Assembly: GCF_014230055.1 (NCBI RefSeq)
Contig: NZ_JACHVA010000101.1
Coordinates: forward strand, 1 to 64,000
Reading direction: 5' to 3'
Length of the DNA stretch: 64,000 nt
DNA from: Puniceicoccus vermicola
GTDB lineage: Bacteria > Verrucomicrobiota > Verrucomicrobiia > Opitutales > Puniceicoccaceae
Position numbers and translations under genes: made by a program. Below, in pieces: positions 30,605 through 63,533 of this stretch. Under the pieces are notes generated by a model. That model made no database searches and was not told the DNA's origin. It was given only the letters and a program-made list of their open reading frames with translations. The stretch's first letter is position 1; each line of letters starts with the position of its first letter.

Positions 30605-30616
30605 GAGAACAATAAT

Positions 30617-31585: not shown

Positions 31586-31623
31586 GCCATCATCAGGTCC
31601 ACCACCAATTGGAGAAACGCATC

Positions 31624-32283: not shown

Positions 32284-32340
32284 GCTCACCGGTAGAGCCC
32301 CTGCAGCTGCAGAAACGTCAATACCAAACATTATCATCAA

Positions 32341-33813: not shown

Positions 33814-33861
33814 AACCAGTAAAACTCATCGATTGACAGGAGTCAGATCAATCCAACATAG

Positions 33862-36130: not shown

Positions 36131-36202
36131 CGTTCCGACTTCGGGGGGATTTTTAAGGATTCGTGCTTTCTCGGAGAGAGGAACCTCTGTCATTCTTAGT
36201 CC

Positions 36203-37225
36203 ATGGCTCGCGATGACACAGTGACGATGAAGGATATTGCGAGGGAGGCGAAGGTCAGTGCCTCGGCAGTATCTCTCGCTCTGCGGGGTAGCCCGCGAAT
36301 ATCCGAGCTCACCCGAACGAGGATTTCGGAGATCGCGGAGAGGATGGGGTATCGGCCCAACCCCCTTGTCTCGGCTTTGATGCAAAGTCGGCGTCGGCCT
36401 CATCAGGAGCAAGGCTTTTTGACAGGAGCCTATCTTTCGTTTGAGGAGATGGCGCCTGTGCTGCGGGAAGAGTCGATCTATGCGGAATTCGAGAGAGGAG
36501 CCATGGCCGAAGCGGCGCGGCAGGGCATCCGGCTGGAGAAATTCAAAGTCGACTCGGAGATGCCTCTTTCTCGCATTGGCCAGATCCTTCACGCTCGCGG
36601 AATCCGTGGAATCGTGGTCTCTCCTTTGCCGCCGGAGTTGGAGGAAATCGAATGGGATTGGGCGGGTGTCTCGGCCATTGCGATTGGACCCACGCTGCGC
36701 AAGCCAGCCCTCCACCGGGTGATGAGTGACCATTATTCCAATATGGAGTCTCTGTTGAAAGCCTGTGCCACATGGGGCTATCGGCGGCCAGGGTTGTGCT
36801 TGGAAACTCTCTCGGACGAGAGAATCGGGGGGCAGTGGGAAGCCTGTTTCTTGAGGCAACAGACGGAAAATCCTTTGTTTGAAAAGGTTCCTTTGATGAA
36901 ATATGCGGACCTCTCCGATTCGTATCTTTTGCATTGGATCCGAGACGAAAGGCCGGATGTGGTCATATGTTCGAGTCCTTGGCGTATCCTCTCCATTTTC
37001 GAGAAGGCCGACATCCGATTGCCGGAAGATGTTGGCCTCGCTTCGGTGAGTGCGGCGCGTCCCGACGGTGACTTGAGCGGAATCGTCGAAGATGGATTCT
37101 CGGCTGGAGCCCAATCTGTCTCGCAACTGTTGCGGATGGTGTACGCGAACGAAGTCGGTTTGCCCGAGAATCCTTTGAAAATTCTGTTGCCCGGCAGGGT
37201 CTATCGCGGCCGGACCACCCGATGA
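36203..37225 (+). CDS. LacI-family transcriptional regulator
   Basis: 340 residues. HTH TMKDIAREAKVSASAVSLAL with hinge YRPNPLVSALMQSRR. The sensor domain is of the divergent type common in Opitutales (GIRGIVVSPLPPELEEIEW, VMSDHYSNMESLLKACATWG, DVVICSSPWRIL, VGLASVSAARPDG). Closely related in layout to the regulator at 44.9 kb. Lies between GH3 and HAD genes in the same direction and may regulate them. Confidence 0.92.
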   Translation: MARDDTVTMKDIAREAKVSASAVSLALRGSPRISELTRTRISEIAERMGYRPNPLVSALMQSRRRPHQEQGFLTGAYLSFEEMAPVLREESIYAEFERGAMAEAARQGIRLEKFKVDSEMPLSRIGQILHARGIRGIVVSPLPPELEEIEWDWAGVSAIAIGPTLRKPALHRVMSDHYSNMESLLKACATWGYRRPGLCLETLSDERIGGQWEACFLRQQTENPLFEKVPLMKYADLSDSYLLHWIRDERPDVVICSSPWRILSIFEKADIRLPEDVGLASVSAARPDGDLSGIVEDGFSAGAQSVSQLLRMVYANEVGLPENPLKILLPGRVYRGRTTR

Positions 37226-37236
37226 AAAGCTGAACG

Positions 37237-38055
37237 ATGAGTTTATCCACAACATTCGCTGTCGCCATCGATTCCGATGGATGCGTGTTCGACAATATGT
37301 CACTGAAGCACCGTGAGTGTTTTGGTCCTTCACTCATTCGTCTCTGGCAGCTTGAAGCGGTTGCCGGTGAGGTGCAGCAGGCCTGGGAAACGATAAACCT
37401 CTATTCGCCAAAACGGGGGATCAATCGGTTTCTTGCGTTGTTGGCCTTTTGGAGGAGCTTTCCCTCTGACCAGTTGCCCCAAGGATTTGTGCGTCCGGAT
37501 ATTAGTGGGATGGAGGTTCTCGCCGATGGAACCGCTTCACTTTCTCCCGATTCGATAAAGCGGGAGCTGGCGAAGAAAGAAGACCGGTTTTTGTCTCAAG
37601 CTCTCGAGTGGAGTCGGGCTGTCAATCGGTGTGTCGCTGAACTGAAGTCGCAGCCTCCCTCGTTTCCGTGCACCCTTGAGTTTATCCGCAGTTTATCGGC
37701 AGTTGCCAGAATCGATGTCGTCTCTTCAGCGAATCGGGAGACGATTCAAGAGGAATGGACTGCGGCGGGATTGGATCCGTTTGTAAACGACTACGTGACC
37801 CAGGAGCGTTGCTCGAAAAAGGAGTATTTGACGGATTTGGTTCGTCAAGGACGCAATACTCTGATGATCGGCGATTCGCCGGGAGATTGGGACGCCGCGA
37901 AGGCCGCGGGTTCTTGGTTCTATCCGATTTTGCCCGGGAATGAGGCCGAGAGTTGGAGAAAACTCCTCCAATTTTGGGAGGAGTCCGGTCATCAAGGAGT
38001 CTTTTGTGAGCATTCGAAGGCCGTCGATGAATACTCGACGACCCTGGGTCTGTAG
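37237..38055 (+). CDS. HAD-superfamily hydrolase
   Basis: 272 residues. HAD motif I is IDSDGCVFDN near residues 11-20, motif II VVSSANRET, a lysine region KKEYLTDLV, and motif IV MIGDSPGDWDAAKAAG. A large helical cap (about 25-150) suggests a small phosphorylated substrate such as a sugar phosphate. Eleven bases after the LacI gene, so probably co-transcribed. Confidence 0.88.
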   Translation: MSLSTTFAVAIDSDGCVFDNMSLKHRECFGPSLIRLWQLEAVAGEVQQAWETINLYSPKRGINRFLALLAFWRSFPSDQLPQGFVRPDISGMEVLADGTASLSPDSIKRELAKKEDRFLSQALEWSRAVNRCVAELKSQPPSFPCTLEFIRSLSAVARIDVVSSANRETIQEEWTAAGLDPFVNDYVTQERCSKKEYLTDLVRQGRNTLMIGDSPGDWDAAKAAGSWFYPILPGNEAESWRKLLQFWEESGHQGVFCEHSKAVDEYSTTLGL

Positions 38056-41568: not shown

Positions 41569-43269
41569 ATGCTAAATTTCTTTCGAAAACATTCTGGAAA
41601 CCTCAAAGACGACGTTTTGTCAGGGCTCACCGTGGCCTTGGCGCTCGTCCCGGAGGCGATTGCGTTTGCCTTTGTGGCCGGGGTTTCACCCATTGTGGGC
41701 CTCTACACTGCTTTCTTTATCGGACTGATTACCTCAATTTTTGGCGGCCGCCCCGGGATGATTTCGGGTGCGACCGGAGCGATCGCTGTGGTCGTCGTTG
41801 GGTTGGTGGCCATTCACGGGGTGGAGTATCTGTTCCCGACGGTGATCCTCTGCGGTTTGATTCAAATGGCTGCGGGCGTCGGCAAATTGGGGCAATTGAT
41901 CCGGATGGTCCCGCATCCGGTGATGCTCGGGTTCGTCAATGGTCTGGCGATTGTTATCTTCATGGCCCAATTCGGGAGCTTTAAGACCATCAATGATGCC
42001 GGGAGTTTGATCTTCATGGAGGGTCCGGCGCTTTATCTGATGCTGGGGTTGGCGGGCCTGACCATGCTCATCATTTGGCTGCTGCCGAAGATCACCCGGG
42101 CAGTGCCAGCCTCGCTGGCCGCGATTTTGGTGGTTACGGGTCTTTCGATCGGGATCAACCAGTTCGCACCAGAAAGCTGGGCAGCGGAAAATCAGGACGC
42201 TCCTTTGCTGACCGTGGGGGATATGTTGGAAACCAACACCGTGGCAAAAGCCACAGCAGACGCTTGGGCAGATATGGGCGCCGATGCCGATCCCGCGATG
42301 GTGGATGAAGTTGTCGCCGCTGCTACGGCTGAAGGGACCGGGATTCAGGCGGGATTGCCGAAGCTCTTTTTTCTCGATGACCAATATGAGGTTTTCCCGC
42401 CATTTACCTGGGCGACTCTCTGGATCATTCTCCCGTTTGCCCTGACAATGGCCGGGGTCGGACTCATCGAGTCGCTCATGACCTTGAGCTTGATCGACGA
42501 AATTACTGAAACCCGTGGCCGCGGAAATCGGGAATGTGTGGGGCAGGGATTGGCTAATGTGGTCTGCGGTCTTTTCGGCGGTATGGGAGGTTGTGCCATG
42601 ATCGGACAGTCCCTGATCAACGTGAATTCCGGTGGACGCGGGCGCGCAAGTGGAATCACTGCGGCGGTCTGTCTGCTGCTCTTCGTTCTGGTCCTGGCAC
42701 CTTGGATTGAGATGATTCCCATGGCCGCGCTCGTCGGGGTCATGTTCATGGTGGTGATCGGAACCTTCGAGTGGGCCAGTTTGAAGATGTTCAAAAAGGT
42801 CCCAGCCGGGGATTTGCTCGTTATGGTTGTTGTCGCGGCATACACCGTTCTCATGCACGATTTGGCGACGGCCGTCATCATCGGGGTCATTATCTCGGCT
42901 CTGAAATTTGCTTGGCAGCACGCCACCCACTTGGGAGCGGAAGAAATGATCAACGAGCAAGGGGGGAAGATCTACCAGTTACACGGACCGCTCTTTTTTG
43001 CCTCCGTGTCTTCCTTTAAAGACCTCTTCAATCCTCGCGAGGATCCGGAGGATGTGGTCATCGATTTTTATTTTACCCGAGTCTATGATCAATCGGGTTT
43101 GGAGGCCATCAATTCTCTGGCGGAGAAATATACGAACCTCGGAAAACGCCTCCACCTTACCCACCTGTCGCCGGAATGTCGCGAGCTCTTGAGCAAGGCG
43201 GGGGATCTGGTCGAAGTGAATCTCTCCGAGGATCCGCAGTATCACGTCGCCACCGACCGATTGGGGTAA
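41569..43269 (+). CDS. SulP-family inorganic anion transporter with STAS domain
   Basis: 566 residues. N-terminal membrane domain with about 10-12 helices, including the family start [21 protein letters not shown] and [12 protein letters not shown], and [20 protein letters not shown] in the second half; C-terminal STAS domain from about 455 ([19 protein letters not shown] ... [20 protein letters not shown]). An acidic insertion of about 70 residues between helices (near 210-280) is unusual. Carries sulfate, bicarbonate or similar anions. Next to a sulfatase locus, sulfate movement is plausible but only inferred. Confidence 0.92.
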
Positions 43270-45986: not shown

Positions 45987-47522
45987 ATGTCAAAATACAA
46001 CGTCTTGATGGTCCTTGCCGACCAACACCACGCGGGATTGATGGGCTGTGCCGGCCACCCGCAAGTGATTACCCCGAACATCGATGCCTTTGCCGAGTCG
46101 GGCATCCGGTTTGATCAGGCCTATGCGCAGAACCCGATCTGCACACCGAGCCGGGTCAGTATCCTGAGTGGTCAGTATTGCCATAACCACGGCTACTACG
46201 GTTTGTCCGGGCGCGCCCCCCGCCTGGACAATCTCTTCCGCCACTTCAAGCGGAATGGGTATCGGACGGCGGGATACGGAAAGTTGCATTTGCCGGAGTC
46301 GCCGGAGAGTTGGATTGCCGACGATGTCGATGAGTTTGGCGACACCTATGAAACCTGTGACGGGGAGCGGGGCACGACCGAGTATTTTCGGTATTTGGAG
46401 GAGCGGGGACTCCGGGAGTGGGAAGACAGTTATCACAATCCCTGGAATTATGGGAAGAATACCATCTCCCTCGATGCCCAGCCGACGCGTATGCCCTATG
46501 AGCATACTCACGAAATGTGGTCGACGCGCAAGGCAATGGATTTTATTGAGGCCGATCCGAATCGACCGTTTTGCATTCAGATTTCGATGCAAAAGCCGCA
46601 TCATCCCTTGTTGCCGGTGCAGAAGTTCTGGGACCTGTATCCGGACGATCTCAATCTACCTTCTACTATTGGAAATGATGCCTCTCACCGGCCGCCGCAC
46701 TTTCAGGAGGCCGTGCGTCAGTTCCGGTCTTTGCAATGGGATTATGCCCGTGAGGGCGAATCCTTTGAGGACGGTGCGCGGCGGGCCTGGAAGGGGACGC
46801 TGGCTTGCGTGACGCAGGTGGATGATGTTTTTGGGAAGCTGCTGCGTTTTCTCGAGGAAAAGGGTCTGTCCGAAAATACGATCGTGATCTATGGCAGCGA
46901 TCACGGCTGTTACCATGGAATGCACGGGATTTCGGAAAAGGCTCCCGGGATCTGCTCGGACAATGTTTGTCGCGTTCCGATGATCTGGCGAGTCCCCGGT
47001 GTTACCCCGAAGGGAATGGTCTGCGATCAATTGGTTGAAAACATCGACATGACCCCAACCCTGGCGGAGTTGTGCGGATTGCCGTCGTTCGATTCTGCGG
47101 ACGGTCTGGACATGACCGAGCTTCTGCGTGGCCACGACCAACCGCTACGCGATGTAGCGGTGACGGAGAATGTCTGGAGTAAGTCGATGCGGTGGGGGAA
47201 GTGGCGATTCGTTCACTACCAGCCCGAGCACTTCGACGGTGCGGATGTGGGCGAGCTTTACGATCTTGAAGCCGATCCGGAAGAAACCATTAATCTCTAC
47301 AGCGATCCCAAGCATGCTGACCAAGTCGTCACCTGTCGGCGTCTGCTGCTGGAATGGATGATCCGCACCCTGCGTTCGAGCACCGGGCAGGAGACGGTGA
47401 AAAACGAGAACCTGCCAAACTATACGAAAGGGATGCATTTTACCTATCCGATTTGCGAGGACGGGCGTCTGCCAACTCCGCTTCAACCTCGTAATAAACG
47501 GTACAATACGATGTATTTGTAG
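45987..47522 (+). CDS. Sulfatase (formylglycine-dependent, S1 family)
   Basis: 511 residues. Metal residues in MVLADQHH, the active-site signature CTPSRVSILSG with C52 as the residue converted to formylglycine, the GYGKLHL lysine-histidine motif, KPHHPLLP, and IVIYGSDHGCYHG for the second metal pair. The C-terminal subdomain has LYDLEADPEETINLYSDP. No signal peptide is evident, so it may act in the cytoplasm or periplasm by another route. It removes sulfate esters from sugars; the substrate is unknown. Divergent from a LacI regulator. Confidence 0.94.
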   Translation: MSKYNVLMVLADQHHAGLMGCAGHPQVITPNIDAFAESGIRFDQAYAQNPICTPSRVSILSGQYCHNHGYYGLSGRAPRLDNLFRHFKRNGYRTAGYGKLHLPESPESWIADDVDEFGDTYETCDGERGTTEYFRYLEERGLREWEDSYHNPWNYGKNTISLDAQPTRMPYEHTHEMWSTRKAMDFIEADPNRPFCIQISMQKPHHPLLPVQKFWDLYPDDLNLPSTIGNDASHRPPHFQEAVRQFRSLQWDYAREGESFEDGARRAWKGTLACVTQVDDVFGKLLRFLEEKGLSENTIVIYGSDHGCYHGMHGISEKAPGICSDNVCRVPMIWRVPGVTPKGMVCDQLVENIDMTPTLAELCGLPSFDSADGLDMTELLRGHDQPLRDVAVTENVWSKSMRWGKWRFVHYQPEHFDGADVGELYDLEADPEETINLYSDPKHADQVVTCRRLLLEWMIRTLRSSTGQETVKNENLPNYTKGMHFTYPICEDGRLPTPLQPRNKRYNTMYL

Positions 47523-47915: not shown

Positions 47916-50900
47916 ATGAAGTCCTACTGCTCCATCTTTGCCTTCTCGCTTTTCGTATATTCCTTGCTTATCCAGTTGTCGTGGGGTCAAGACATATCGG
48001 AAGGGCCGATGGGGGGTGCGGTTCTTGACTACGATCGGGGTGATCTGATTTGGCAGCTAGGCAAAGAGGATATCGGTGAAGGGGCGATCCCTGCCTCCGG
48101 TTGGGTCGAATTCGATGTCACGATTACGGAGCCGGGTTGGTATGTTCTTTCTTTTCAGGAGATGCCGTTTTTTGCGCGGGAAATTCTAGTCGATGGAGAG
48201 CGAATGGCCATGACTTTCAGCGAAAGCGTCAAGAGTGCGGCCGAGCTTCAGGGTATTCCATTGAAGGATCTGACGGTCGATGGATGGGCGAAAGAGGTGA
48301 ATCTTCCGCTGGAGGCGGGAGAACATACGATTCGTTTGGCGCGTTATGGACGCATGGGATTCCCGAAAGGGTTGCCTCGCCAATGGTCCTTGGAGCGCGC
48401 TTCCCAGGATGCGCCCCAAGATCGTATTTATGTTCGGGTAGAGGGTTACCGGGAACTGCGATTGGGCGAACCTTTGAAGTTGAAAGTTACATCCGGGTGG
48501 GGAGATGCATCGCAATACGAAATTTACCGGGCGAACATGGAGACCGGCGAGCAAGAACGGGTTGGAGAGCTCGATTTCGCGGAGTCGAATCGGTTTGAGA
48601 CCCAAGTCCTGGAGATTCCGACGCCGGAAGAAGGGGTTTTCCAGCTGCTGGCCAAAACGGGTGATACGTATCTTACCCACCAAGAGTTCATCGAAGGTCC
48701 CTACTTTGTCATCGATACGGAAAACCGATCGGCCCCCATCTCGGCCAATGCCAAAAAGAAGCTTCTCTACGACATCGACTGCATCACCAACACGATCAAT
48801 GGCGAACCGGTCGAACTGAACGTCAACTACTGGGAGGCAAATGGGGCGACTCGGATTAGCGAGACCGAGGCGGGTCGTTATCGCGAGTCGGGAAATGGGA
48901 TGGGGCCGGAGACCAATCCGTTGGCGAAAAATATTCAAAACAACTTCTCTGGATTTTCCTACCAGTTCGACGTCCCGGAGCCCGGCAAGGCCTACTTGAT
49001 CGAAATCGATCACCCGGACGATGCATGGCGGTCCGTCTGTGTCCCGTTTGTGGAATACTACAGCTTTAATCCGGAAGGTCCTTCCAACGGCTACGCGCCG
49101 CGGGCTTTTGCCTATGAGACGGGGGGCACGCTTCCGCTTTCGAATGAGATGCTGACGGAATCGTTTTTCACTTGGCCGAATGGTGAGAAAATGGTGCTCG
49201 GGCTTGCATCCTCTCGTATCGGCAAGCGTGCGGCCGCTGCACGAATCCGGATTTATGAGATCCAGGAGCAGTTGCCTGCCCAGACGCGGGGAGCGGATGG
49301 ACGTTTCATGGGACTTTTCATGGAGGAGCCGGAACGGTGGCACAATCATTTCAATACACCTCCGAACCTGGAAGGGCCCGTGAGGGATTTCATCGGACTG
49401 AACCGAGTGATGGAGTGGGCTTCCTATATCGGAATGAATGGTTTTTGGCCGTCGGTCACGGCTTATCAGAACACGACCTATCCCTCGAAGGAGCTCGAAG
49501 GGTATCTTATCAGTCACTACAACACTCCTCGGTTGAGTGCGTTGCTGTGCGAAAAATACGATATGGCCTTTGCGGGAGATATCTTTCTGGCCCGGCAGAA
49601 GTATTTTAATGATCGGACCATGTTGGAGGGGGGCGAAAATCCGGAGGACCTCTACACGACCACTTGGTGGGGGTATCGCTACGATCCCGAGGTGCAGGGG
49701 GGGATTTTGCCCACCTGGAATATTCTTCATCCTCGGGTGCAAGACAAGATGATCGCGATATACGGGGAAATCGCCGATACTTTGGGAGATACCGAGTCAT
49801 TCGTCGGGTTGGCCGGTCGTCTCATGAGCTGGCGCTGGGATGGGCTTTATGCGCTCTCGAGCCTCAACTGGGGATATTCCGATTGGACGATTGAACAGTT
49901 TGAAGCCGATACCGGAATCCAAGTTCCAGGGAAGGTCGATGACCCTGAACGTTACGAGGTGCGTTACCGTTTTCTGACTTCCGAAGCGATGATCGAAAAT
50001 TGGATGGAGTGGCGAAACGGTCGTGTGACTGATTTCCTGAAACGTCTCGGTGCGCGCATTCAAGAAGCGAAGCCCGATGCCGTGTTTTATTTGGCGGGTT
50101 CAGCCGAGAGTGACCAGATTCACAATCTAAGTCTTTCGGAGAATCTTTCGGAACGCTATCGATCAATGGGAATCGACGTGGATGCACTCGGCCCGGATTC
50201 GGGAGTTTCGATCATGCCGATAGGATTTTTCGGACGCGGAAAACCGCGCACCTATTATGAGGATCAAGAGGCGTATGACGTCTTTATGGATCCGACTTAC
50301 TCAACTAGCGGGGGCGGGGCGGTCACCAGTTTTTCCCACAGCGGATTCTATCAGGAGTGGGGAACGGAATTTCCGTATGAAAAGCTGGGAATGCTCTTGA
50401 AGCGTCGTCCGCATTATTGTACTGGATCAGACGCCGCGGGAAGAAATCTGCTTGAACGGCTTTCGGTGGTTCTCGCCGAGCAGGATACGATGGCGATCCG
50501 GCAAGGAGCCTATCCGCTTCTGCACGGACGCCGTGATTTCTTCTCCGAGTGGATGGCGGAGTTCTCCAGCCTGCCGCGCCGATCCTTCACACCGGTGGAA
50601 TTCGCCCGGGATCCGGTCGCGGTCTGGGAGCGCGAGGATGAAGAAGGCTATCTTTTTTATATGGTGAATCGCGAGCGTTATCCGGTGACGATTACACTGA
50701 ATCTGACGGGCGCGGCGTCCGTGCAACGCATGGGGACGGGTGAGCCGCTGCCTTTGCGTATGGATCGGCTCGTGGTTCGATTAGAACCTTATGCGCTGCA
50801 ATCGTTCAAAGCCCCTCATGAGGCGAAGATCGTCGATGCGGATATCGCGGTGCCGACCGAGCAGATCGTGCTGCTTGAAAATCGGTTGGCGACGATCAGA

Positions 50901-52097
50901 GAACTCGGGGCTGAGATCGAAGACCGGGAGGATGACGCGGCCGAGGAATATCGAAGCCGGATGGCTCTTGCCGAGCAGGCTCTGGAGGACGGTGCATTCT
51001 GGAGGGCTCGGACACTGATGGCGTCTGCCCCCATGATCAAGATCTATGATGATCTCGGTTCGTTTCCCGAGGGAGTGGTTCACGTCCGTTACCCGAATTT
51101 GCTGGAGCAGACTGTAGCAGGCCGATACGACCCGGATAGTCCGTTTCTCGATGCCGAGGACCTTTTGGGAGATCTGGAAACCACGCAAGGAATAGAGCTG
51201 GTGGATTCGTCCGTTTTTGATCCCGACTGGAGCTATACCCCGGTCATCCGCAGCGAAGCCGGAAGTCTTACATTTAGGCTCGATGTTCCGGTGAATGGTT
51301 TTTACCGCCTCAGTTTCGGCTATGTGGTGACCGAGCCCACCTCGCTGGAAGCCACTCTGGCAGAAGGCGAAATCTCGAAGTCTTTCGAGGTTCCGGAGTT
51401 CGGTCTTCCGGAAAAGGGCGTCTTCGGCGAGTTGAAGTTGGAAGCGGGCACTCTGGATCTGACGGTTTCGGCTCCGGTCGATTTCGGAGTTTACGCCGTT
51501 CAGTTGGAGCCCGTGTTGCAGTCGCTGCCAACGACACTATGGTCGACGGTCGGGAATTTTGGAAGCTATTGGGATACGAGCGTGCGTCGGCGTGAATTTC
51601 AGGATCCGTTGATCCGGCAAGGGGCGGAGCGTGAATACGGACCCGAGAAAGATCCCTCCATCGATGCGACCTACGTAGACTTCAAAGGCAAACCGGTGAC
51701 TTGGAGTCAAACCGAAGAAATCATCGCTCTTAACGAGGACAACGGTGTCAATTTTGCGCCCCGCGAAGGTATTATCAGCAACGCGATCGCTTTTGCCCAG
51801 ACCTTTATCGAAAGTCCGGTTGAGCAAGAGGTTATTCTCTATATCGGGACGGATTGGTGGGCAAATGCCTACTTTAACGGTGAACTTTTGCGGCCCGCTG
51901 CGGGCGAGGAATTGAGCCAGCGTCATGGCTATTGGTATTCGGGATGGAAACCGCGTCCGGTTCGGGTGACTCTACAGCCCGGTGTGAACCGCTTGCTGAT
52001 TAAGAACCAGGGGGGATCCATGCACAGTTGGTTTACGGTTCGCATGACCGAGACCGGCGATCTGAGGATCGGACCGACCCCCGAGTCGGTGCAGTGA
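47916..52097 (+). CDS. Large secreted multidomain protein, putative glycosidase of unrecognised family
   Basis: 1393 residues. Signal peptide about 1-24 (ending SWGQ). Regions by eye: N-terminal beta-sandwich-like module (about 30-165; SGWVEFDVTITEPGWYVLSF, LPLEAGEHTIRLARYG), Ig-like part to 270, a further beta region to 460, a TIM-barrel-like centre about 480-860 (WASYIGMNGFWPSVTAYQNT, YGEIADTLGDTESFVGLAGR, MEWRNGRVTDFLKRLGARIQ), a helical coiled stretch near 980-1050, and two beta modules to the end, the first again of the N-terminal type. No known GH family is recognised; the centre recalls GH10-like GHL10 proteins. It is probably exported and acts on the sulfated glycan. Confidence 0.75.
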   Translation: MKSYCSIFAFSLFVYSLLIQLSWGQDISEGPMGGAVLDYDRGDLIWQLGKEDIGEGAIPASGWVEFDVTITEPGWYVLSFQEMPFFAREILVDGERMAMTFSESVKSAAELQGIPLKDLTVDGWAKEVNLPLEAGEHTIRLARYGRMGFPKGLPRQWSLERASQDAPQDRIYVRVEGYRELRLGEPLKLKVTSGWGDASQYEIYRANMETGEQERVGELDFAESNRFETQVLEIPTPEEGVFQLLAKTGDTYLTHQEFIEGPYFVIDTENRSAPISANAKKKLLYDIDCITNTINGEPVELNVNYWEANGATRISETEAGRYRESGNGMGPETNPLAKNIQNNFSGFSYQFDVPEPGKAYLIEIDHPDDAWRSVCVPFVEYYSFNPEGPSNGYAPRAFAYETGGTLPLSNEMLTESFFTWPNGEKMVLGLASSRIGKRAAAARIRIYEIQEQLPAQTRGADGRFMGLFMEEPERWHNHFNTPPNLEGPVRDFIGLNRVMEWASYIGMNGFWPSVTAYQNTTYPSKELEGYLISHYNTPRLSALLCEKYDMAFAGDIFLARQKYFNDRTMLEGGENPEDLYTTTWWGYRYDPEVQGGILPTWNILHPRVQDKMIAIYGEIADTLGDTESFVGLAGRLMSWRWDGLYALSSLNWGYSDWTIEQFEADTGIQVPGKVDDPERYEVRYRFLTSEAMIENWMEWRNGRVTDFLKRLGARIQEAKPDAVFYLAGSAESDQIHNLSLSENLSERYRSMGIDVDALGPDSGVSIMPIGFFGRGKPRTYYEDQEAYDVFMDPTYSTSGGGAVTSFSHSGFYQEWGTEFPYEKLGMLLKRRPHYCTGSDAAGRNLLERLSVVLAEQDTMAIRQGAYPLLHGRRDFFSEWMAEFSSLPRRSFTPVEFARDPVAVWEREDEEGYLFYMVNRERYPVTITLNLTGAASVQRMGTGEPLPLRMDRLVVRLEPYALQSFKAPHEAKIVDADIAVPTEQIVLLENRLATIRELGAEIEDREDDAAEEYRSRMALAEQALEDGAFWRARTLMASAPMIKIYDDLGSFPEGVVHVRYPNLLEQTVAGRYDPDSPFLDAEDLLGDLETTQGIELVDSSVFDPDWSYTPVIRSEAGSLTFRLDVPVNGFYRLSFGYVVTEPTSLEATLAEGEISKSFEVPEFGLPEKGVFGELKLEAGTLDLTVSAPVDFGVYAVQLEPVLQSLPTTLWSTVGNFGSYWDTSVRRREFQDPLIRQGAEREYGPEKDPSIDATYVDFKGKPVTWSQTEEIIALNEDNGVNFAPREGIISNAIAFAQTFIESPVEQEVILYIGTDWWANAYFNGELLRPAAGEELSQRHGYWYSGWKPRPVRVTLQPGVNRLLIKNQGGSMHSWFTVRMTETGDLRIGPTPESVQ

Positions 52098-52126: not shown

Positions 52127-54469
52127 ATGAATCAAAAAAAACTCCTCTCCCTATTCGGCTTCATCTTCATCGCTGTCGTATCATCGGCTCTGGGCGAAGA
52201 TACGGTTGCAGACGGTATCATCTCCCGTGACGGATGGTCTTTCGACCGCCATGGCCTGGAAGGGCGACCGGAGGAGATCGATGCGCTTCTCGCGGAAAAG
52301 GGGAAACGGTTCAAGGCCAGTGGTTGGGTCGAGTATGACATCGAGGTCCCTGGGACCGGTTGGTATGCCCTTTGGCTTGCCGGGAGCCCTCCGGAGTGGC
52401 CCCGTGATCTATACATTGATGGAGAAACCGTCATTCGTCTCGGGGTTTCTTATGGGAGCGACGTGAATGAAACTCCTCCCGGCCATCCGACTTGGTATAA
52501 AGAGGCTAACCTATTTCTGGAAAAGGGCAGTCATGCGCTTCGCATTCAGCGTTTAGGTTTCCCCGGAATGTTGCCGACGGCTTTGGAGCTCCGTCCGGTT
52601 TCGGGAGAAGCTTCCGGAAGTATTCGTGCTTTGGTGGGTGCAGACCGTCTGGTCGAGGCAGGAGAATCGACAACTCTCGAGCTGATCGGAGGAACCACAC
52701 GGCCCTTGGATTATGAGTTTTACGTGCAGAACGAAGTTACCGGTGAACTGTCGCCGGTCGGGAATCTGTTGTTCCCGAAGGCGGATACACCGATTCATAA
52801 AGAGGTCGCTTTTACCCTTCCGGAGCCGGGGCTCTATTCGATCGTTGTCCGTGCCGAAGGTGAGGTACTGCGTCCATCGGATGTGAAAGGCGGATACTTC
52901 GTCGCGGCGGAGAAAAGCGGGCATGGAATCGTTCAAGACGGATTCCGTCTGGCGGGGGTCTTTCGCGATGGAATGGTGATCCAGCAGGGAAAGCCATTGC
53001 CGGTATGGGGAGTCGCTCCGGCCGGTGAAAAGGTGCAGATCTCTCTGGGCGGACAAAGTGCCGAAACGGTGGCCGACGACGATGGACTGTGGGAGGTGAT
53101 TTTGGAGCCCATGAGTGTCGGAGGCCCACCCATGCAGTTGGTTGCTACTGCCGGTGACGAGAAACGTACCTATGACGATGTACTGGTCGGTGAAGTTTGG
53201 GTGGCTTCGGGGCAGTCGAACATGGGAGGACGTATGGACATCAGCCCGAACTTCGACGAATGGTTGGCTCGTGGGGACTATCCGGATGTCCGCGTGACTT
53301 CCTTGAAGCAATGTGAAACGGATGACGGAGATCCTCTGATCGAAGGATATCGTTGGTCGGATGCAGACTTTCAGGGCGATGAAAAGGCAATCAAGCAGTG
53401 GAAGCCGATTCAGTATGCTTTCGCCACCGATCTGCATCGCGCACTCGATGTTCCCGTGGGCATCGTCATGGTCAATCGCGGGGGAACGGTGATTTCGACT
53501 TGGACCAGTATGGACTTGCATGAAAACCATGAAGCTTTTCGTCCTATGTTGGAGGGGCTTCATGCAAACCAGCGCGAACGAGTGCCGGAGCTGACCCATG
53601 TTCAGGACTATATCGGTGACATTCGAAAGTGGCAGAAACGGTCCGAGAAGGCGAAGGCTCAAGGGAAAATAGCCCCGAAGATGCCCGAGCCTCAGTTGGA
53701 GATCTCTCGGAAGAACGATCCCGGCTACTTGTTTGAGGCGTTGATCGAGCCATTGGCCCGTTTTCCGGTCCGAGGGATTATCTGGTATCAAGGAGAGAGC
53801 GACAGCAGTATGGCCGAGGCTTACCGGGATCGATTTCCGGCGATGATCCGAAATTGGCGTGAACTTTGGGGTGAGCCCGATCTTCCATTCTATTTTGTGC
53901 AGATCGCCTATGGGCAAGGAGAGCGTTTTGAGGGAACTCCCGGAGATTACAGGCATGGGGAGATCAAGGAAGCGCAGGCGATGGCTCTCACCGTTCCCCA
54001 TACCGGGATGGCTGTCACCGATGACTTGATGCAGCCCGGCGACGACGTGCACTATCCGAATAAGTTGCCGGTAGGGCATCGCTTGGCTCTCATTGCGCTG
54101 GCGAATACTTATGGAATGGATCTGGAATACTCCGGTCCCGTTTACCGGGAACATCAGGTGGAGGGGGATCGGATTCGGCTCTTCTTCGATCATGCCGAAG
54201 GTCTTGAGGTTGCGGGTGGAGAGTCTCTGCGAAACTTCTGGATCGCCGGAGAAGATCGCGAATGGTTTTGGGCGGAAGCCCGAATTGACGGGGAAAGCGT
54301 CCTCGTGAGCAGCCCGGAGGTAACGGATCCGGTAGCGGTTCGATACTCTTGGGGAGATCAGCCCATGGGAACCAATCTGGTTAATGCGGCAGGATTGCCG
54401 GCGCCGGTCTTTCGAACCGACGATTGGCCGATGGAAACCGAGGGTGTCTACTGGATTAAGAAGGATTAG
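52127..54469 (+). CDS. Secreted sialate O-acetylesterase-like enzyme with N-terminal module
   Basis: 780 residues. Signal peptide about 1-24 (ending SSALG), then a module homologous to the start of the 1393-residue protein (SGWVEYDIEVPGTGWYALWL, EKGSHALRIQRLGFPG), an Ig-like part, and a SASA/SGNH esterase domain from about 285: FRDGMVIQQGKPLPVWG, catalytic serine in VASGQSNMGGR, RGIIWYQGESDSS, and the Asp-His pair in DDLMQPGDDVHYPNK. Removes O-acetyl groups from sugars. ATG 52127 is set by the signal peptide; it lies 29 bp after the previous stop, so the two genes form an operon. Confidence 0.9.
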   Translation: MNQKKLLSLFGFIFIAVVSSALGEDTVADGIISRDGWSFDRHGLEGRPEEIDALLAEKGKRFKASGWVEYDIEVPGTGWYALWLAGSPPEWPRDLYIDGETVIRLGVSYGSDVNETPPGHPTWYKEANLFLEKGSHALRIQRLGFPGMLPTALELRPVSGEASGSIRALVGADRLVEAGESTTLELIGGTTRPLDYEFYVQNEVTGELSPVGNLLFPKADTPIHKEVAFTLPEPGLYSIVVRAEGEVLRPSDVKGGYFVAAEKSGHGIVQDGFRLAGVFRDGMVIQQGKPLPVWGVAPAGEKVQISLGGQSAETVADDDGLWEVILEPMSVGGPPMQLVATAGDEKRTYDDVLVGEVWVASGQSNMGGRMDISPNFDEWLARGDYPDVRVTSLKQCETDDGDPLIEGYRWSDADFQGDEKAIKQWKPIQYAFATDLHRALDVPVGIVMVNRGGTVISTWTSMDLHENHEAFRPMLEGLHANQRERVPELTHVQDYIGDIRKWQKRSEKAKAQGKIAPKMPEPQLEISRKNDPGYLFEALIEPLARFPVRGIIWYQGESDSSMAEAYRDRFPAMIRNWRELWGEPDLPFYFVQIAYGQGERFEGTPGDYRHGEIKEAQAMALTVPHTGMAVTDDLMQPGDDVHYPNKLPVGHRLALIALANTYGMDLEYSGPVYREHQVEGDRIRLFFDHAEGLEVAGGESLRNFWIAGEDREWFWAEARIDGESVLVSSPEVTDPVAVRYSWGDQPMGTNLVNAAGLPAPVFRTDDWPMETEGVYWIKKD

Positions 54470-54528: not shown

Positions 54529-55959
54529 TCAATGCCGGAGCTGGAACTGTTCGTCGAGCCAGCGCCATGCGAGCCGGTCGAATTCGGCGGACCAGTCATG
54601 GCCGAGGCCGGCTAGGGGAACGATCTCCTTGTCGTCGGTTCCAAGGCGATTGTAGATTCCCCAGACGCTGTAGGCCGGAGAAATCGGATCGATTAAGCCT
54701 GCGTTCATCAAGACGGGACATTCGACGTCGGGCGCGAAGTTCATGGGATCGTAGTAGGCAACGCATTGCCCTCGGGCCGTTTCCAGCCCGGAAGGCGGTG
54801 TGAACATTTCGATCGGGTCCGTCCCGGGAATCGGGGTGGTTTTCGCCTCATTCAAGTCCTCTTCCCACCGGAGATGGGGTTCGTTGCCGGAGTTGGCGAT
54901 ACAGGAGACGATTGCGGTTACGCGTGGATCCAATGCGGCGACGATCACGGAAAGCCGCCCGCCTTGGCTACCCCCGACTGCAGCGAGCTTTCCGGGAAGA
55001 ACGTCGGGTCGGGAGGCCAGGAGATCGACCGCCCGTTGGGCTCGGAGGTAGACGTTGTGAAAGTAGTTGGCTTCGACCGGATCGTAGACCTGATCGCGTT
55101 TATAGTATCCAGCCAGTTTTTCGTAGTTTTCCAGATCGACGTCTTGACCATGAATTTGAATATCGAGAGCGACGTAGCCGTGGCGGGCATGCTCAAGGGG
55201 GCGGGGGCGCGCGGCGAATCCGGCTCCGGGGAGGACCAGCATGGCAGGAAACGGACCGTCGCCGACTGGTTTGGCGAGCCAGCCGTACACGCGTTTTCCC
55301 TCGGGACCCTTGAAACTGATTTTGTAGGATTCGACTTTGTCGTAGACAATTCCTCCCGGGTCGTAGCGAGCGGGAAGGTTAGCGGATTCGCGGTTGTAGG
55401 CGTCGATCTGCTCGGCAGTGAAAACTCGGGGAGTGTCTTCGATTCTAGGGTCCAAGGGAATCTCCGCAGATTGGTCGAGAGCCGTTTCCCAGAACCGGGA
55501 AAAATCGTCGGGCCGAGTCTTGGACATCGGCATTTCGGTCGGATCGATGCCGAATGTGCAAACTCCCTCTTCGGGTTCCTTCAACCCGGTATCCACCGCA
55601 ATGCGGAGGTCGTAAAAACCCGGAGGGAGATCGCGGGTGTCGATGTCGATTAGAAAAAGATTGGCGGGTAGTGGTTCGGCCTTGCCCGTCCGGAACTCTT
55701 TCCGGATCTGATTGAGGTGGAGAGACCAGCTCATCGAGATCGCTTTGACATTCACCTGACAGTAGATTCGCACTTTCCGAGGATTCTGTTCGAAGATAAA
55801 GTTCGGCGATTCCGCACAGAAAAAGCTGAGGTTCGGGTTTTGCGGGGGAGAGCCTTTGATGCTCCAGGGACGTGCGAGGTTGAGATTCATGGAGTGAAGC
55901 GAGCTGCTCGCGGGGCTCAATAAGGCGAGTGACAGGAGGAGGAATCGAAGGAAATGCAT
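54529..55959 (-). CDS. Secreted acetyl xylan esterase-like enzyme (CE7 type)
   Basis: 476 residues. Signal peptide about 1-20. N-terminal beta domain to about 145, then the CE7/AXE1 fold: VYGWLAKPVGDGPFPAMLVL, nucleophile elbow GGSQGG, acid in NAGLIDPISP and histidine in GLGHDW. CE7 enzymes remove acetyl groups from short oligosaccharides. Convergent with the preceding esterase gene, 59 bp apart, and followed upstream by a sulfatase gene in the same direction. Two esterases beside sulfatases imply an acetylated and sulfated substrate. Confidence 0.9.
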   Translation of the reverse strand: MHFLRFLLLSLALLSPASSSLHSMNLNLARPWSIKGSPPQNPNLSFFCAESPNFIFEQNPRKVRIYCQVNVKAISMSWSLHLNQIRKEFRTGKAEPLPANLFLIDIDTRDLPPGFYDLRIAVDTGLKEPEEGVCTFGIDPTEMPMSKTRPDDFSRFWETALDQSAEIPLDPRIEDTPRVFTAEQIDAYNRESANLPARYDPGGIVYDKVESYKISFKGPEGKRVYGWLAKPVGDGPFPAMLVLPGAGFAARPRPLEHARHGYVALDIQIHGQDVDLENYEKLAGYYKRDQVYDPVEANYFHNVYLRAQRAVDLLASRPDVLPGKLAAVGGSQGGRLSVIVAALDPRVTAIVSCIANSGNEPHLRWEEDLNEAKTTPIPGTDPIEMFTPPSGLETARGQCVAYYDPMNFAPDVECPVLMNAGLIDPISPAYSVWGIYNRLGTDDKEIVPLAGLGHDWSAEFDRLAWRWLDEQFQLRH

Positions 55960-56074: not shown

Positions 56075-57439
56075 CTAGACTTTGAGGCGATCCGGGCTGA
56101 GTTCGACCCAGCCGACGCCGGGGACGGCGGCGTGACCGGGGTGGGTATAGTGTTTGGCATAGGCATCACCCGTGGAGCGACACCATTCGGCGAGGAGTTC
56201 ACGGTGCTTTTGGAGGGTATTCGCATGACGCTTCTCGACGGCCAAATTGATCATCTCGCCGGGATCGTCCTCCAGATCGAATAGCTGTTCGTTATTCTCT
56301 CCCCAGCGGTGTGCTATGTATTTGAAGCGTGGTGTGCGCACCATCCGTGCTTCGCAGGCGTTGTTCAAGCGCGTTTCTGCTATGAGAACCTCGCGGGCGG
56401 AGCTTGAAGAATCGACGCCTTCATGGCGAAGGCTTCTTCCGCAAAGGCCTGCGGGTGGCGTAACGCCTGCGTAGTCGCAGCAGGTAGGAAGGAGGTCGAA
56501 CCCAATCGATACGAGCTGGTCGTCTGTGACACCCCGGCGGGTATCTGCCGGGTCGCGCACAATCAGCGGCACGCCGACACTTTCTTCGTAGAGCACCTGT
56601 TTGTGGAAAAGTTGGTGGGCCGCGTTCATCTCACCGTGATCGCTGGAAAGAATGACCACCGTGTCGTCCGCGAGTCCGGATTCGTCCAGTGCGTCCAGAA
56701 TCTGACCGATCTGAGCATCTACCTTCTCGATCAGCCGATAGAATTGATGGCGGTAGCGGCGCCAGCGTTCCTCGGAGTAGGGGGTGACCGCCTGATTTTG
56801 AGCTTGGGCTCGTCTCAGGCTAATGACCTGAGGCTCGCCTGTCGAAGGGCGGAAATTCTGGGGAAGGTTCGGGTACTCGTCGACTGGCACGTCTTGTACT
56901 TCTCCCCAGGGGAGTGGCTGGTTTCGGTCTGCCTCGCAAATGTTGTGTGGGTTGTCGAACCCGGCCACTAGAAAGAATGGCCGTGGATCATCGACCTGCA
57001 GGAAGCGAGCGCAGGCCTCGGGGAGATGGTTGTCATCCAGCCCGCAAATCCGTTCGAAGCCAAAGTCTTGATCCGAGGGCTCCGGGGGACCGAGATCTTC
57101 GAGCGAATGATCGCTAATATGCCACTTCCCGCCCCATCCGCAGCGATAATTCCCCTGATCCCGAAGGAGACGGCCCAAGGTGGGCGGGAGATCTTCCTTC
57201 TTCCAATCCGTCTCAAATCCCGTAATTCCCAACTGGGAGGGGAGTCGGCCAGTGATCATACTGGCGCGGGAAGGGGTGCAGAGAGGGTGAGTGCAGTAGG
57301 CGTTGGTATAGCGGACCCCGCGTTGAGCCAGTCGATCGATGTTCGGCGTCTCAAGATCGGAGTTCCCCGCACAACTGAGGGCGACTGGGTTGAGGTGATC
57401 TCCAAAAATGTAGAGGATATTCGGTTGTTTTTTGTGCAT
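56075..57439 (-). CDS. Sulfatase (formylglycine-dependent, S1 family)
   Basis: 454 residues. ILYIFGDHLNP metal site, active-site motif CTPSRASMITG with C54, GGKWHIS, DNPHNIC, and VVILSSDHGEMNAAH with the second metal pair; C-terminal LFDLEDDPGEMINLA. No signal peptide seen. It is a different lineage from the sulfatase at 46 kb (iduronate/heparan-type look, uncertain). Lies 115 bp upstream of the CE7 esterase gene on the same strand, probably co-expressed. Confidence 0.94.
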   Translation of the reverse strand: MHKKQPNILYIFGDHLNPVALSCAGNSDLETPNIDRLAQRGVRYTNAYCTHPLCTPSRASMITGRLPSQLGITGFETDWKKEDLPPTLGRLLRDQGNYRCGWGGKWHISDHSLEDLGPPEPSDQDFGFERICGLDDNHLPEACARFLQVDDPRPFFLVAGFDNPHNICEADRNQPLPWGEVQDVPVDEYPNLPQNFRPSTGEPQVISLRRAQAQNQAVTPYSEERWRRYRHQFYRLIEKVDAQIGQILDALDESGLADDTVVILSSDHGEMNAAHQLFHKQVLYEESVGVPLIVRDPADTRRGVTDDQLVSIGFDLLPTCCDYAGVTPPAGLCGRSLRHEGVDSSSSAREVLIAETRLNNACEARMVRTPRFKYIAHRWGENNEQLFDLEDDPGEMINLAVEKRHANTLQKHRELLAEWCRSTGDAYAKHYTHPGHAAVPGVGWVELSPDRLKV

Positions 57440-57675: not shown

Positions 57676-60600
57676 ATGAGAAACTTCCGGAAAGGTCGAT
57701 TGTCCGTCGCCCGCGCGGATCGTTCTGCGATCCATAGTGGCGGTGGTACGATCTTGGGGTCAAAGAATCCTGGATTTGCTCTGGTCATCGCTCTTTCGTT
57801 GATGGCATTCATCGTATTGCTTCTTTTTTCGGTCAGCGTGATGGTCGGTGTGGAGATATCGACGGCTGAGAAGCAGAAATACCGCATTCTTGCCCGCCAG
57901 AATGCGCTTCTTGGAGTTCAGGTTGCCATGGGAGACACGCAGGTGGCTCTGGGGCTCGACACGCGGGTGACGGCGACGGCGGCACGGCGTGACTCTGACC
58001 CGTATGATGGCGACGACTTGGATGAGACCACAGGAGCATTGATTGTGGATGGTTTGGACCGGGATCGTCAGCAATGGACAGGGGTTTGGGATGCGGCTCG
58101 CGATGCTGAGGGATATCCCATGACAACATTCCGTCATTGGCTGGTTTCGGGTTTTTCGAATGATCATGTGTTTGTTGAGGCAGATACGGATACTGGATCG
58201 ACACCGTTTCAGAATCCACTGGAGATTTTACCCGGGCCGAATCCGGTTACCGTGGGCTTGGAGGAAATTGCATCTCGCGGCGGCTTCGCTTTCTGGGTCG
58301 GCGATGAGGGGGTAAAGGCGAAAGTAAATCTGAGTTCCTCTCCGGTGGTGAGCGATTCTTCATCGCCGAGTCGTTTTGGAGTAGGTGCGGTCGATGGTTT
58401 CGATTGGTTCGATTCAAACCAATTGACGGAAGTCGGCAGAGTCTTGAATCAGCCCAGTTGGAACCTTTTGGCGATTCGAACCGGTGGACAAGGGGCGGTC
58501 GATAGCGTTGCTCAGCGGTTTCATGATGTCACCCCGTACAGCTATGGTGTTTTCGCCAATACGATCGACGGCGGGCTAAAAAAAGATCTGACGACAGCGC
58601 TTTTCGATACGACCGACTTCCCGATCGGACAGGTTTTTGGCCCCTTGGCTGATCTAGCCAATCCTCTTGAGGATGTTGGGGGACCGGATTGGGATCAGGT
58701 TCGTTCTTGGGTCAATACCTCAACAAATAGCGAGGGTGCTCTTTTGCCGCGCGAGGAGACGCAGACGCAGGCGGGAATTTCTCCGCTGATTGCCGCTTTT
58801 CAGATTTACATGGTGCCCGGATGGCGAGTCGTAGATGGCTTGGTAAAGTTAGATCTCTACGCGATGCCGGCTGTGGTGCTTTGGAATCCATACAACGTTC
58901 CGATCGGGGCCTCGGACTATGTCGTCGAAGCGGCTTCCATTGTGCCCAAAGGCGTTTCATGGGATATTGATGACGCCTACATTGAAAAAATATGGCAGGG
59001 ATTGGCCTATTCGTTGAGCCTCGACGAGAATCCTGCGGGTTTAACTACGGATTCCGGTGGAAGCCTTCACATCGGGTCGGTATCATTCGATACTCAGGAG
59101 GAATGGGATCATTTTTTCAACGATCCGGCACAGTTTCGATTGGAGGGGGTGGAGTTGGAGCCGGGGGAGGCGGTTGTTTTTACTCCTACCAGCCCTATTC
59201 AAGAGTACGATTTGCTCGATCCCCAAGCAACGCTCTCACCCGGGTTTCGGCCGGGATTTGCCTTCAGGATCCCGTTGACGGGGAGAGATTTTGCCTACGA
59301 CGAGGATTTGCATGACGACAATCCGGATACTTACCCGTTTACGTACCAACTGGTGGTGAAATTGATCAACAATGCGTTGGGCTTGCAGTTGTACAAGGAT
59401 TCTGTCGCCCCCGGGAATTTATTGCAGACCATGGTCCGCATGGGAAATGGTCCCGAGTGGGATTTGAATTCCGGTTATGTGCAATTGCAGAGAGCCCCGG
59501 GAACCGGTCCGATTACGGATCTCAGTTATGGTGCGGGTTTTAAATTGGTCCACAATTATGTCGTGAATCTTCCCTTTTGGAATTCGTCTGGGGCGCGGTC
59601 TTTACCGGATTCCTACAAGTGGCTGGCGCACTTCAATCCGAGAGCCGCGCATCACGGGCCGATTCCCGTCGTATTTGAGAAAGGAAACAAGGGAACGCAG
59701 GTTAACAAAGTGTCGCCGAATCCTACTTTTTCCGGAAATTTTCTTCGCGGTGATATTTCCAACCATATGCAGCAAGGGTTCAATATTGCCGCAGATGATC
59801 AGAGTGTCAGTGTCGGAAGTGACAATAATTATCGAAGTGTTTTATTCCAGGTTTCTCCCGAGCGAGGGGAGCTGCATTCGCTGGGACAACTGTCTCAGGC
59901 CTCTCTATTTCGATCGCCTGATGAGAATACGGATTTCAAGTTGTACGATGCCTATGACTACGCCCGGTTTGGAAACCAGCTTCCTGCTTATGCAATCGGG
60001 AACGGTCGGGCTTCTCCGATGATCCCGCTGGATCAAACTGAGGTGAACTGGACGACTCGATATCAATACACGAATCCGAACATGAACTTTCTGGGAGTAC
60101 ACCACGACTATTCCTACAAATTGAATGAAGGTCTTTGGGACCGGTACTTCTTCTCGACTTTGGAGGTCGAAGGGGGAGGGTACGAGCCCGGTTTTGATCG
60201 ATATGTATTGAAAGAATCTCTTTCCCCGCCAGCGACGATGGATGAGGTTGCCGGTAATCTGATGATCGACGGACCCTTCAATGTGAATAGCACCTCGGTG
60301 GACGCTTGGAAGGCCTTGCTGGCTTCCTACTATTACGAGGATGTTATTCGGAGTGATGGCACGACCGAGGTGGCCGATCTGGTGGATCCCGAGTCGCCGC
60401 TGTTGAGAGTGGACCGGCCGGTTGGAGATGCATTTGATTCAGGGTCCGAAAACTATTATTCGGACAGTGCGTATGATGGATATCGTGTATTGTTGCCGGA
60501 TGAGATCGATACGCTTGCCGAGAAAATTGTCGAGGAGATCAAACTTCGGGGTCCATTCGCCAGTATGGCGGAGTTTGTGAATCGATCTCCCAACCTGGAC

Positions 60601-61068
60601 CACACGAATCGGTTGGCCGGAGAATCGGTGGATGATTTCCGCCTCCAAGGCCTTCTGAGCCGGGCAATTGAGAAAGCAGAACTAAACGACGAATTGCGTT
60701 CTCCCGGGACCCAAACTTCCTACAGTGGAGTCCCTGATCTCATTCCCGAAGTTGAAGAGGGGGATCGGAGCGAAGATCTTCCGGGTTGGTTGAGTCAGTT
60801 CGATTTGTTGGCCCGGTTGGGAAGTGTTTTGACCACACGGTCTGACACCTTCCGGGTGCGGGCGTATGGTGAAGTAACCGACCCCTTAACCGGCGCGAAA
60901 GTATCGACGGCAGTTTGTGAGGCGGTGATGCAGCGATTGCCGGAATTTGTGGACTCCGTTGGCAATGATCCTGAGGATGATCTCGATTCATTAAACCCGT
61001 TCAATGAGAGTTTCGGCAGGCGCTTTGTCGTAGTGGATCTTCGTTGGTTGGAGGACTTGGAAATATGA
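57676..61068 (+). CDS. Pilin-like large protein, Verru_Chthon cassette protein A-like
   Basis: 1130 residues. After about 30 polar residues comes one pilin-type hydrophobic segment, GFALVIALSLMAFIVLLLFS, then a heptad-like stretch and NALLGVQVAMGDTQVALG, followed by a long domain of about 1000 residues with no recognisable enzyme motif (GGFAFWVGDEGVKAKVNLS, WNPYNVP, TTRSDTFRVRAYGEVTDP). This matches my recollection of Verru_Chthon cassette protein A (TIGR02600), found only in Verrucomicrobia with pseudopilin partners. The usual partners B, C and D are not here. Stop overlaps the next gene (ATGA). Confidence 0.7.
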   Translation: MRNFRKGRLSVARADRSAIHSGGGTILGSKNPGFALVIALSLMAFIVLLLFSVSVMVGVEISTAEKQKYRILARQNALLGVQVAMGDTQVALGLDTRVTATAARRDSDPYDGDDLDETTGALIVDGLDRDRQQWTGVWDAARDAEGYPMTTFRHWLVSGFSNDHVFVEADTDTGSTPFQNPLEILPGPNPVTVGLEEIASRGGFAFWVGDEGVKAKVNLSSSPVVSDSSSPSRFGVGAVDGFDWFDSNQLTEVGRVLNQPSWNLLAIRTGGQGAVDSVAQRFHDVTPYSYGVFANTIDGGLKKDLTTALFDTTDFPIGQVFGPLADLANPLEDVGGPDWDQVRSWVNTSTNSEGALLPREETQTQAGISPLIAAFQIYMVPGWRVVDGLVKLDLYAMPAVVLWNPYNVPIGASDYVVEAASIVPKGVSWDIDDAYIEKIWQGLAYSLSLDENPAGLTTDSGGSLHIGSVSFDTQEEWDHFFNDPAQFRLEGVELEPGEAVVFTPTSPIQEYDLLDPQATLSPGFRPGFAFRIPLTGRDFAYDEDLHDDNPDTYPFTYQLVVKLINNALGLQLYKDSVAPGNLLQTMVRMGNGPEWDLNSGYVQLQRAPGTGPITDLSYGAGFKLVHNYVVNLPFWNSSGARSLPDSYKWLAHFNPRAAHHGPIPVVFEKGNKGTQVNKVSPNPTFSGNFLRGDISNHMQQGFNIAADDQSVSVGSDNNYRSVLFQVSPERGELHSLGQLSQASLFRSPDENTDFKLYDAYDYARFGNQLPAYAIGNGRASPMIPLDQTEVNWTTRYQYTNPNMNFLGVHHDYSYKLNEGLWDRYFFSTLEVEGGGYEPGFDRYVLKESLSPPATMDEVAGNLMIDGPFNVNSTSVDAWKALLASYYYEDVIRSDGTTEVADLVDPESPLLRVDRPVGDAFDSGSENYYSDSAYDGYRVLLPDEIDTLAEKIVEEIKLRGPFASMAEFVNRSPNLDHTNRLAGESVDDFRLQGLLSRAIEKAELNDELRSPGTQTSYSGVPDLIPEVEEGDRSEDLPGWLSQFDLLARLGSVLTTRSDTFRVRAYGEVTDPLTGAKVSTAVCEAVMQRLPEFVDSVGNDPEDDLDSLNPFNESFGRRFVVVDLRWLEDLEI

Positions 61069-62921: not shown

Positions 62922-63089
62922 GTTTGGGGATGGATCGAATGATTGTGCCAAAAGGAAATGTTCGGTTGACAAGTAACTACCATAGGATAGTTGTTGATCG
63001 TATTCTTCAATGCAAGCCTATCCCTGATTCCCCTGTATTCTGATTGTCGGATGGGCGAAAACTTCGGTTCTCTCCCGTATTTACCCTCT

Positions 63090-63533
63090 ATGCTCCGCGA
63101 ATCTTCTTCTTTTATCCGTCGTCCCAACATCGTTTATATCCTCGCGGACGATATGGGCTACGGTGACTTGAGCTGTCTGAACGAAAATGCTGCCGTTCGC
63201 ACGCCGAACCTGGACCGTATGGCGGCTCGGGGAATGTCGTTTACGGACGCCCATTCGAGTTCGGCAGTCTACACCCCGTCGCGTTATAGTATTCTAACCG
63301 GTCGCTACATGGATGACACCTCTCATTTGCCCGCGATCCAGCTTTATGATCTATGGGAGGATATTGGCGAACGGGAAAACGTGCGGGCGGATTTTCCCGA
63401 GGTGGAAGAAGAACTGACGAAGCTCTTTTCCCGCTATGTTTTGGAGGACAGAAGCACCCCCGGGGCTCCGCAGCCGGATACGCGGCCATCCCATCGGGAA
63501 CAGTTGAATTGGGAGATCGAAAGAACCGCTTAA
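63090..63533 (+). pseudogene. Sulfatase with internal deletion and mutated active-site cysteine
   Basis: 147 codons in one open frame. The N-terminal part is a clear sulfatase (RRPNIVYILADDMGYGDLSC, TPNLDRMAARGMSFTDAHSS), but the active-site motif reads VYTPSRYSILTG: Tyr (TAC) stands where Cys (TGC) is required, a single-base change. After TGRYMDDTSHLPAI the frame jumps to a sulfatase C-terminus (QLYDLWEDIGERENVRADFP ... EDRSTPGAPQPDTRPS), so about 300 residues are missing. It cannot be an active sulfatase. Fifteen bases downstream a secreted enzyme gene begins. Confidence 0.85.

Follow-up and report, generated by a model that had tools for sequence, protein, structure and literature searches.

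Gene A is an open reading frame (ORF) of Puniceicoccus vermicola located at positions 47916–52097 of the 64,000-nucleotide stretch analyzed here (the window; positions 1–64,000 of contig NZ_JACHVA010000101.1, assembly GCF_014230055.1). We rate it as somewhat better than an even prospect that gene A encodes a secreted, multi-modular glycoside hydrolase (GH) that acts on a polysaccharide carrying sulfate and acetyl groups and probably also fucose, and that it belongs to a family outside Pfam and NCBIfam. An enzymatic function is what we infer from the predicted fold, the invariant carboxylates of its barrel, and the gene setting, which together support it. Since homologues occur both throughout the phylum and beyond it, gene A is not a chance ORF. 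A preliminary description had presented it as a secreted protein of 1393 residues and a candidate new glycosidase family, and both the coordinates and the length proved exact. Algal glycans that are sulfated and rich in fucose are hard to degrade and tie up carbon, and our knowledge of the enzymes cleaving them is incomplete. The barrel family described here, which occurs in 46 of 387 genomes of the phylum and has a recurrent partner gene and specific candidate residues, lends itself directly to assays. Should it prove active, one more family would be gained, along with an example of a GH42/GHL10-like barrel that functions without the usual strand-4 acid.

Predicted fold and domain organization

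AlphaFold2 models were obtained for residues 266–978 (with ten relatives) and residues 1062–1393. The first comprises a β-sandwich, a TIM barrel, and a β domain, with a predicted local distance difference test score (pLDDT) of 79.3 and a predicted template modeling score of 0.84, while the second has a mean pLDDT of 68. Both models support the order of β modules, TIM barrel, and further β modules that had been proposed from the letters. The eight barrel strands, as read from the DSSP line, span residues 464–469, 509–515, 551–556, 629–636, 723–728, 764–769, 805–815 (broken at 810), and 860–864, with an additional strand at 834–840. The N-terminus has a lysine and a hydrophobic stretch up to SWG-QD; by eye, this resembles a Sec signal peptide, in line with the claimed secretion.

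Structural comparison with VIA-align placed PgaB (GH153) first (Z 14.9, root-mean-square deviation 3.6 over 329 residues, 9% identity) and Cwp19 (GHL10) second (Z 14.6), followed by GH42 chains at Z ~12–13.6 over 370–397 residues and ~10% identity, with the following β domain included. In the case of 5xb7, 390 residues aligned to model residues 197–704, namely the barrel and then the β domains, as in GH42. GH42 β-galactosidases and an α-L-arabinopyranosidase were among the nearest folds, and Foldseek returned 446 PDB matches at E ≤ 0.001 with GH13 enzymes first; a family missing from these fold lists is not thereby excluded. The preliminary description had named structure prediction and a fold search as the check on its proposal, and these returned the enzyme-like TIM barrel but also kin, namely PgaB/GH153, Cwp19/GHL10, and GH42. 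Although the C-terminal domain of PgaB is the best fold match, its genomic setting is different, and its catalytic strand-4 Asp (D474 in Bordetella, according to an excerpt of PMC5933820) has no evident counterpart in gene A, judging from the GHL10 and GH42 alignments.

When searched alone, the N- and C-terminal parts of gene A matched no Pfam family. The β domain after the barrel gave a weak Malt_amylase_C match and a profile match to 1sma/1gvi, and Glyco_hydro_42C was found there in one of the 43 rows of the family alignment. The last β domain also occurs, weakly, in a GH2-type protein of 1391 residues (L011:4145–8320, contig C36).

Conserved residues and distant kinship with GHL10 and GH42

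In searches of Pfam, gene A produced a sub-threshold GHL10 (PF02638) match at residues 651–724 (16.9 bits, against a gathering cut-off of 27.9), whereas NCBIfam yielded no match. Pfam Glyco_hydro_42 did not match gene A at E ≤ 1 or any of the 43 cores at E ≤ 1e-3, and the GH29 profile PF01120 found no match in gene A. When A, A2, and A5 were compared by sequence with solved structures, no full-length relative came up, only weak hits, maltogenic amylase and trehalose synthase among them; a literature search found no paper describing the family within the library that it covered. We call the family undescribed relative to the libraries compared, namely Pfam, NCBIfam, and PDB sequences.

Nevertheless, profile comparisons point to distant kinship of the barrel with both GHL10 and GH42. 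Using hhalign, the barrel alignment matched GHL10 with p 3.2e-7 over ~200 columns and GH42 with p 4.5e-7 in local and 7.4e-9 in global mode. Column-shuffled controls, by comparison, gave p of at least 0.029 in 40 runs and no lower than 0.064 in 20 further runs, and other families (GH29, GH2, GH4, SASA, and sulfatase) gave at least 0.039. The GH42 set consisted of ten sequences, an ORF at L084 having been dropped as a probably spurious antisense frame; with all 11, the placement of E814 and of the missing acid/base was the same. At E ≤ 1e-3, the GHL10 profile detected 20 of the 43 members, and of the three paralogues of gene A in its own genome (B, C, and D), C (29.1 bits) and D (37.3) exceed the gathering cut-off, while B (18.7), like gene A, stays below it. 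The earlier proposal of a new family, with no CAZy family recognized in the core, holds as far as Pfam and NCBIfam cut-offs for gene A are concerned, but not for its distant relationships or for paralogues C and D. Plain membership in GHL10 or GH42 was considered and rejected on residues and scores.

Across the 43 rows, in which mean column identity is 29%, E470, Y517, and E814 do not vary at all, while 42 rows have D656 and the remaining one has Glu in its place. The PDDxxR motif of the β-sandwich before the barrel is similarly kept (D368 and R372 in 43/43, D369 in 42/43). E470 terminates strand 1, D656 comes just after strand 4, and E814 terminates strand 7, the last assignment following the DSSP order rather than a residue-level superposition. 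In the global profile alignment with GH42, E814 is paired, with low local confidence, with the MES-motif Glu that is the GH42 nucleophile. Hydrolysis would probably involve E814, at this nucleophile place, together with either D656 or E470 as the second carboxylate. The nucleophile role of the GH42 Glu agrees with Glu320 at strand 7 in PMC5765458, which assigns to Cwp19 an Asp-Asp pair (D195/D196) at the end of strand 4 and a Gly (G328) at strand 7. The acidic residues previously suggested as catalytic are ruled out by their lack of conservation: E627 in TESFVGLAGR is Glu in only 3 of the 43 rows and Pro in 33, and D733 in YLAGSAESDQ is Asp in 13.

Gene A shares with GHL10 a TIM barrel and profile homology, but differs in its score below the Pfam cut-off, in the Glu that replaces the strand-7 Gly, in missing the strand-4 Asp-Asp, and in having an extra β-sandwich before the barrel and a β domain after it. 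With GH42 β-galactosidases and the α-L-arabinopyranosidase, it shares the succession of barrel and β domain and the E814 position, but not a Pfam GH42 match or the strand-4 Asn-Glu. The distant GHL10 homology would fit a role like that of the known GHL10 proteins Cwp19 and DigH, with peptidoglycan or glycans of the cell itself as the target of gene A. We regard such a role as very unlikely, given that neither the GHL10 DD motif nor the strand-7 Gly is kept, that gene A sits inside a sulfatase/esterase cluster, and that the two other searched genomes of the genus are without it. A search of 52 nearest-kin genomes matched P. vermicola alone.

Paralogues, relatives, and gene setting

The three paralogues lie on the contig of gene A (C101), with all four copies inside ~41 kb (Table 1). 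Paralogue C is 48% identical to gene A over 1371 residues, and a SASA protein follows both A and C, the two SASA proteins being 50% identical. Gene A and its esterase thus appear to form a cassette, of which C and the esterase behind it would be a diverged copy ~20 kb away. For the SASA esterase next to gene A, we take the ATG at 52127 as the start, since the TTG at 52028 gives a poorer signal peptide; this leaves a gap of 29 base pairs after gene A. Residues 60–265 of gene A, within the N-terminal module that recurs in the SASA proteins, are 31% identical to this adjoining protein (blastp E 4e-18). A short ORF at 62991–63533, just upstream of paralogue B, contains a sulfatase fragment (C101:63123–63323) that covers only the first 66 profile positions. 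No precise function could be assigned to the MR_MLE-like neighbor at L009:15790–17178, the protein at L009:12987–14039, or the trehalase-like protein at L010:2259–4259.

Table 1. Features of gene A, its neighbors, and its paralogues (window positions unless a contig is named)
Feature	Position	Strand	Length	Basis or remark
Gene A, secreted multi-domain TIM-barrel protein, putative glycoside hydrolase	47916..52097	+	1393 residues	ORF, homologues, predicted fold
Putative Sec signal peptide, residues 1-24	47916..47987	+		Judged by eye from sequence
N-terminal module, residues ~30-265	48003..48710	+		Also in adjoining SASA esterase and paralogues B, C, D
Beta-sandwich before barrel, residues ~266-455, PDDxxR motif	48711..49280	+		AlphaFold2, conservation
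TIM barrel, residues ~461-885	49296..50570	+		AlphaFold2 secondary structure, fold matches, conservation
Beta domain after barrel, residues ~890-974	50583..50837	+		Resembles GH42 and maltogenic-amylase C-terminal domains
CBM6/CBM35/CBM22-like beta-sandwich, residues ~1075-1200	51138..51515	+		AlphaFold2; VIA-align Z ~11-12
Last beta domain, residues ~1272-1383, poorly modeled	51729..52064	+		Inside stretch shared with GH29 fucosidase (C101:90836)
Sulfatase, CTPSR motif, upstream of gene A	45987..47522	+		PF00884 E 8e-41
SASA-type carbohydrate esterase with gene A's N-terminal module	52127..54469	+		PF03629 E 1e-24
AXE1-type acetyl esterase	54529..55959	-		PF05448 E 1e-33
Second sulfatase, CTPSR motif	56075..57439	-		PF00884 E 2e-43
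Paralogue B	C101:63549-68447		1632 residues	
Paralogue C	C101:68432-72652		1406 residues	
Paralogue D	C101:85895-89125		1076 residues	

At E ≤ 1e-8, a search profile built from the four copies of P. vermicola (A–D) matched the 46 genomes of the phylum, and 35 of 311 among the better genomes. An alignment scan of named records gave five loci (two in Planctomycetota with a near-identical locus, two in Armatimonadota, and one in an unplaced bacterium), where a single-protein scan of the same contigs gave no match. Each of these loci contains two copies, which are adjacent in four of them and separated by a GH29 gene in L045. In a tree of the 43 barrels, gene A falls in an A-type clade of 6 rows (support 100/98), next to which stands a B-type clade of 4 rows (100/99), and all four B-type proteins carry an NHL-type propeller stretch at their C-terminal end. 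An A-type gene adjoins a B-type gene in P. vermicola (C and B) and in L044 and L046. A bolder and distinctly tentative idea is that of a new multi-phylum GH family that would keep the GH42-type nucleophile on strand 7 while D656 or E470 has taken over as acid/base from strand 4. Its members would break down sulfated fucans as a conserved two-gene unit, in which an A-type enzyme with carbohydrate-binding-like C-terminal modules is paired with a sister enzyme of B type that has an NHL propeller at its end.

The neighborhoods were surveyed with seeds for ten neighbor types over 32 relative loci (L042–L073, of which L042 and L043 are nearly identical) and the P. vermicola loci. Fucosidase seeds located the GH29 gene between the two copies in L045, a GH95 gene beside the copies in L044, and a GH29 gene near two copies in L066. 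The other seeds matched GH4 in L042 and L043, GH2 in L042, L043, L065, L069, and L070, and sulfatases in L056 and L060. Since many contigs are short and only ten seed types were run, the absence of a seed means little. Prepilin-like N-termini (FTLIELLVV or FTLVELLVV) were seen in genes near the enzyme genes of L042, L043, L044, and L046.

Candidate function and substrate

The claimed placement of gene A between sulfatase and esterase genes was confirmed (Table 1), and both of these sulfatases carry CTPSR, the usual formylglycine site. Farther along the contig, at 84–96 kb, are a GH29 α-L-fucosidase (C101:90836–93031) that carries the C-terminal module of gene A, a GH4 gene, and two more sulfatases. 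The β modules at both ends of gene A, which are common to the SASA esterase and the GH29 fucosidase, probably hold the enzyme on a joint substrate, and the sulfatases, the SASA and AXE1 esterases, and the fucosidase, all within the same 50 kb, would work on the same glycan as gene A. A similar association of sulfatases, GH29, and carboxylesterase-type genes is described for fucose-polysaccharide clusters of Verrucomicrobiota in an excerpt of PMC8857213, which does not name the barrel family of gene A. Genome-wide, matches in P. vermicola number 7 for GH29 and 63 for sulfatases, fragments included. Two partial GH29 matches (C99:8315–8858 and C101:214273–214560) have an internal stop or are split in two, and are likely broken genes.

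The sugar type of the substrate is weakly supported. GH42-like barrels cut equatorial linkages, for example in β-D-galactosides, and it is possible, if doubtful, that the barrel is active on a main substrate other than fucan, such as a sulfated galactan or a bacterial exopolysaccharide, from which GH29 would remove side-chain fucose only. The presence of GH42 β-galactosidases and α-L-arabinopyranosidase among the nearest folds, the position of E814 on the GH42 MES Glu, and the GH4 and GH2 genes close to the copies in L042 and L043, two loci without a fucosidase match, are all consistent with such an activity. Against it stand the two fucosidase families found near copies of the gene, at three outside loci and one in P. 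vermicola, and the C-terminal module shared between gene A and the resident GH29 protein.

Several observations weigh against the hydrolase as we propose it. The GH42 strand-4 acid/base (Asn-Glu) falls on non-acidic residues of the gene A family, and the GHL10 strand-4 Asp-Asp has no acidic counterpart either, gene A having R635-L636 there; the five commonest residues of column 635 are R (20 of 43 rows), H (12), W (4), Q (2), and L (1), with uncertain gap placement in this loop. Around E814, the confidence digit of the global profile alignment is low (3) and the structure model is only moderately reliable (block pLDDT ~65, compared to ~74 around E470). In addition, a fucosidase seed was matched in only 3 of the 32 outside loci (L044, L045, and L066), so the link to fucose is only suggestive, and with 63 sulfatase matches genome-wide, sulfatase neighbors are not rare in P. 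vermicola. That the strand-4 tip is without the acid found there in GH42 and GHL10 would also suit a barrel without catalysis in a large sugar-binding or scaffold protein. This is improbable, however, as three carboxylates at strand ends or loops are retained in 42–43 of the 43 rows despite 29% identity, which would be unusual for a family-wide pseudoenzyme.

Around the cluster, guanine-cytosine content showed no clear break. A gene for a SulP-type sulfate permease with a STAS domain (41569–43269) precedes the sulfatase genes by a few kb, and a protein of 1130 residues at 57676–61068 had no Pfam match and a very weak match to Verru_Chthon cassette protein A (E 0.09). The window also contains a second sugar cluster (29126–38055), which includes an ABC transporter ATPase and permease, a mannitol dehydrogenase-type oxidoreductase, a GH3 protein, a LacI regulator, and a HAD hydrolase.

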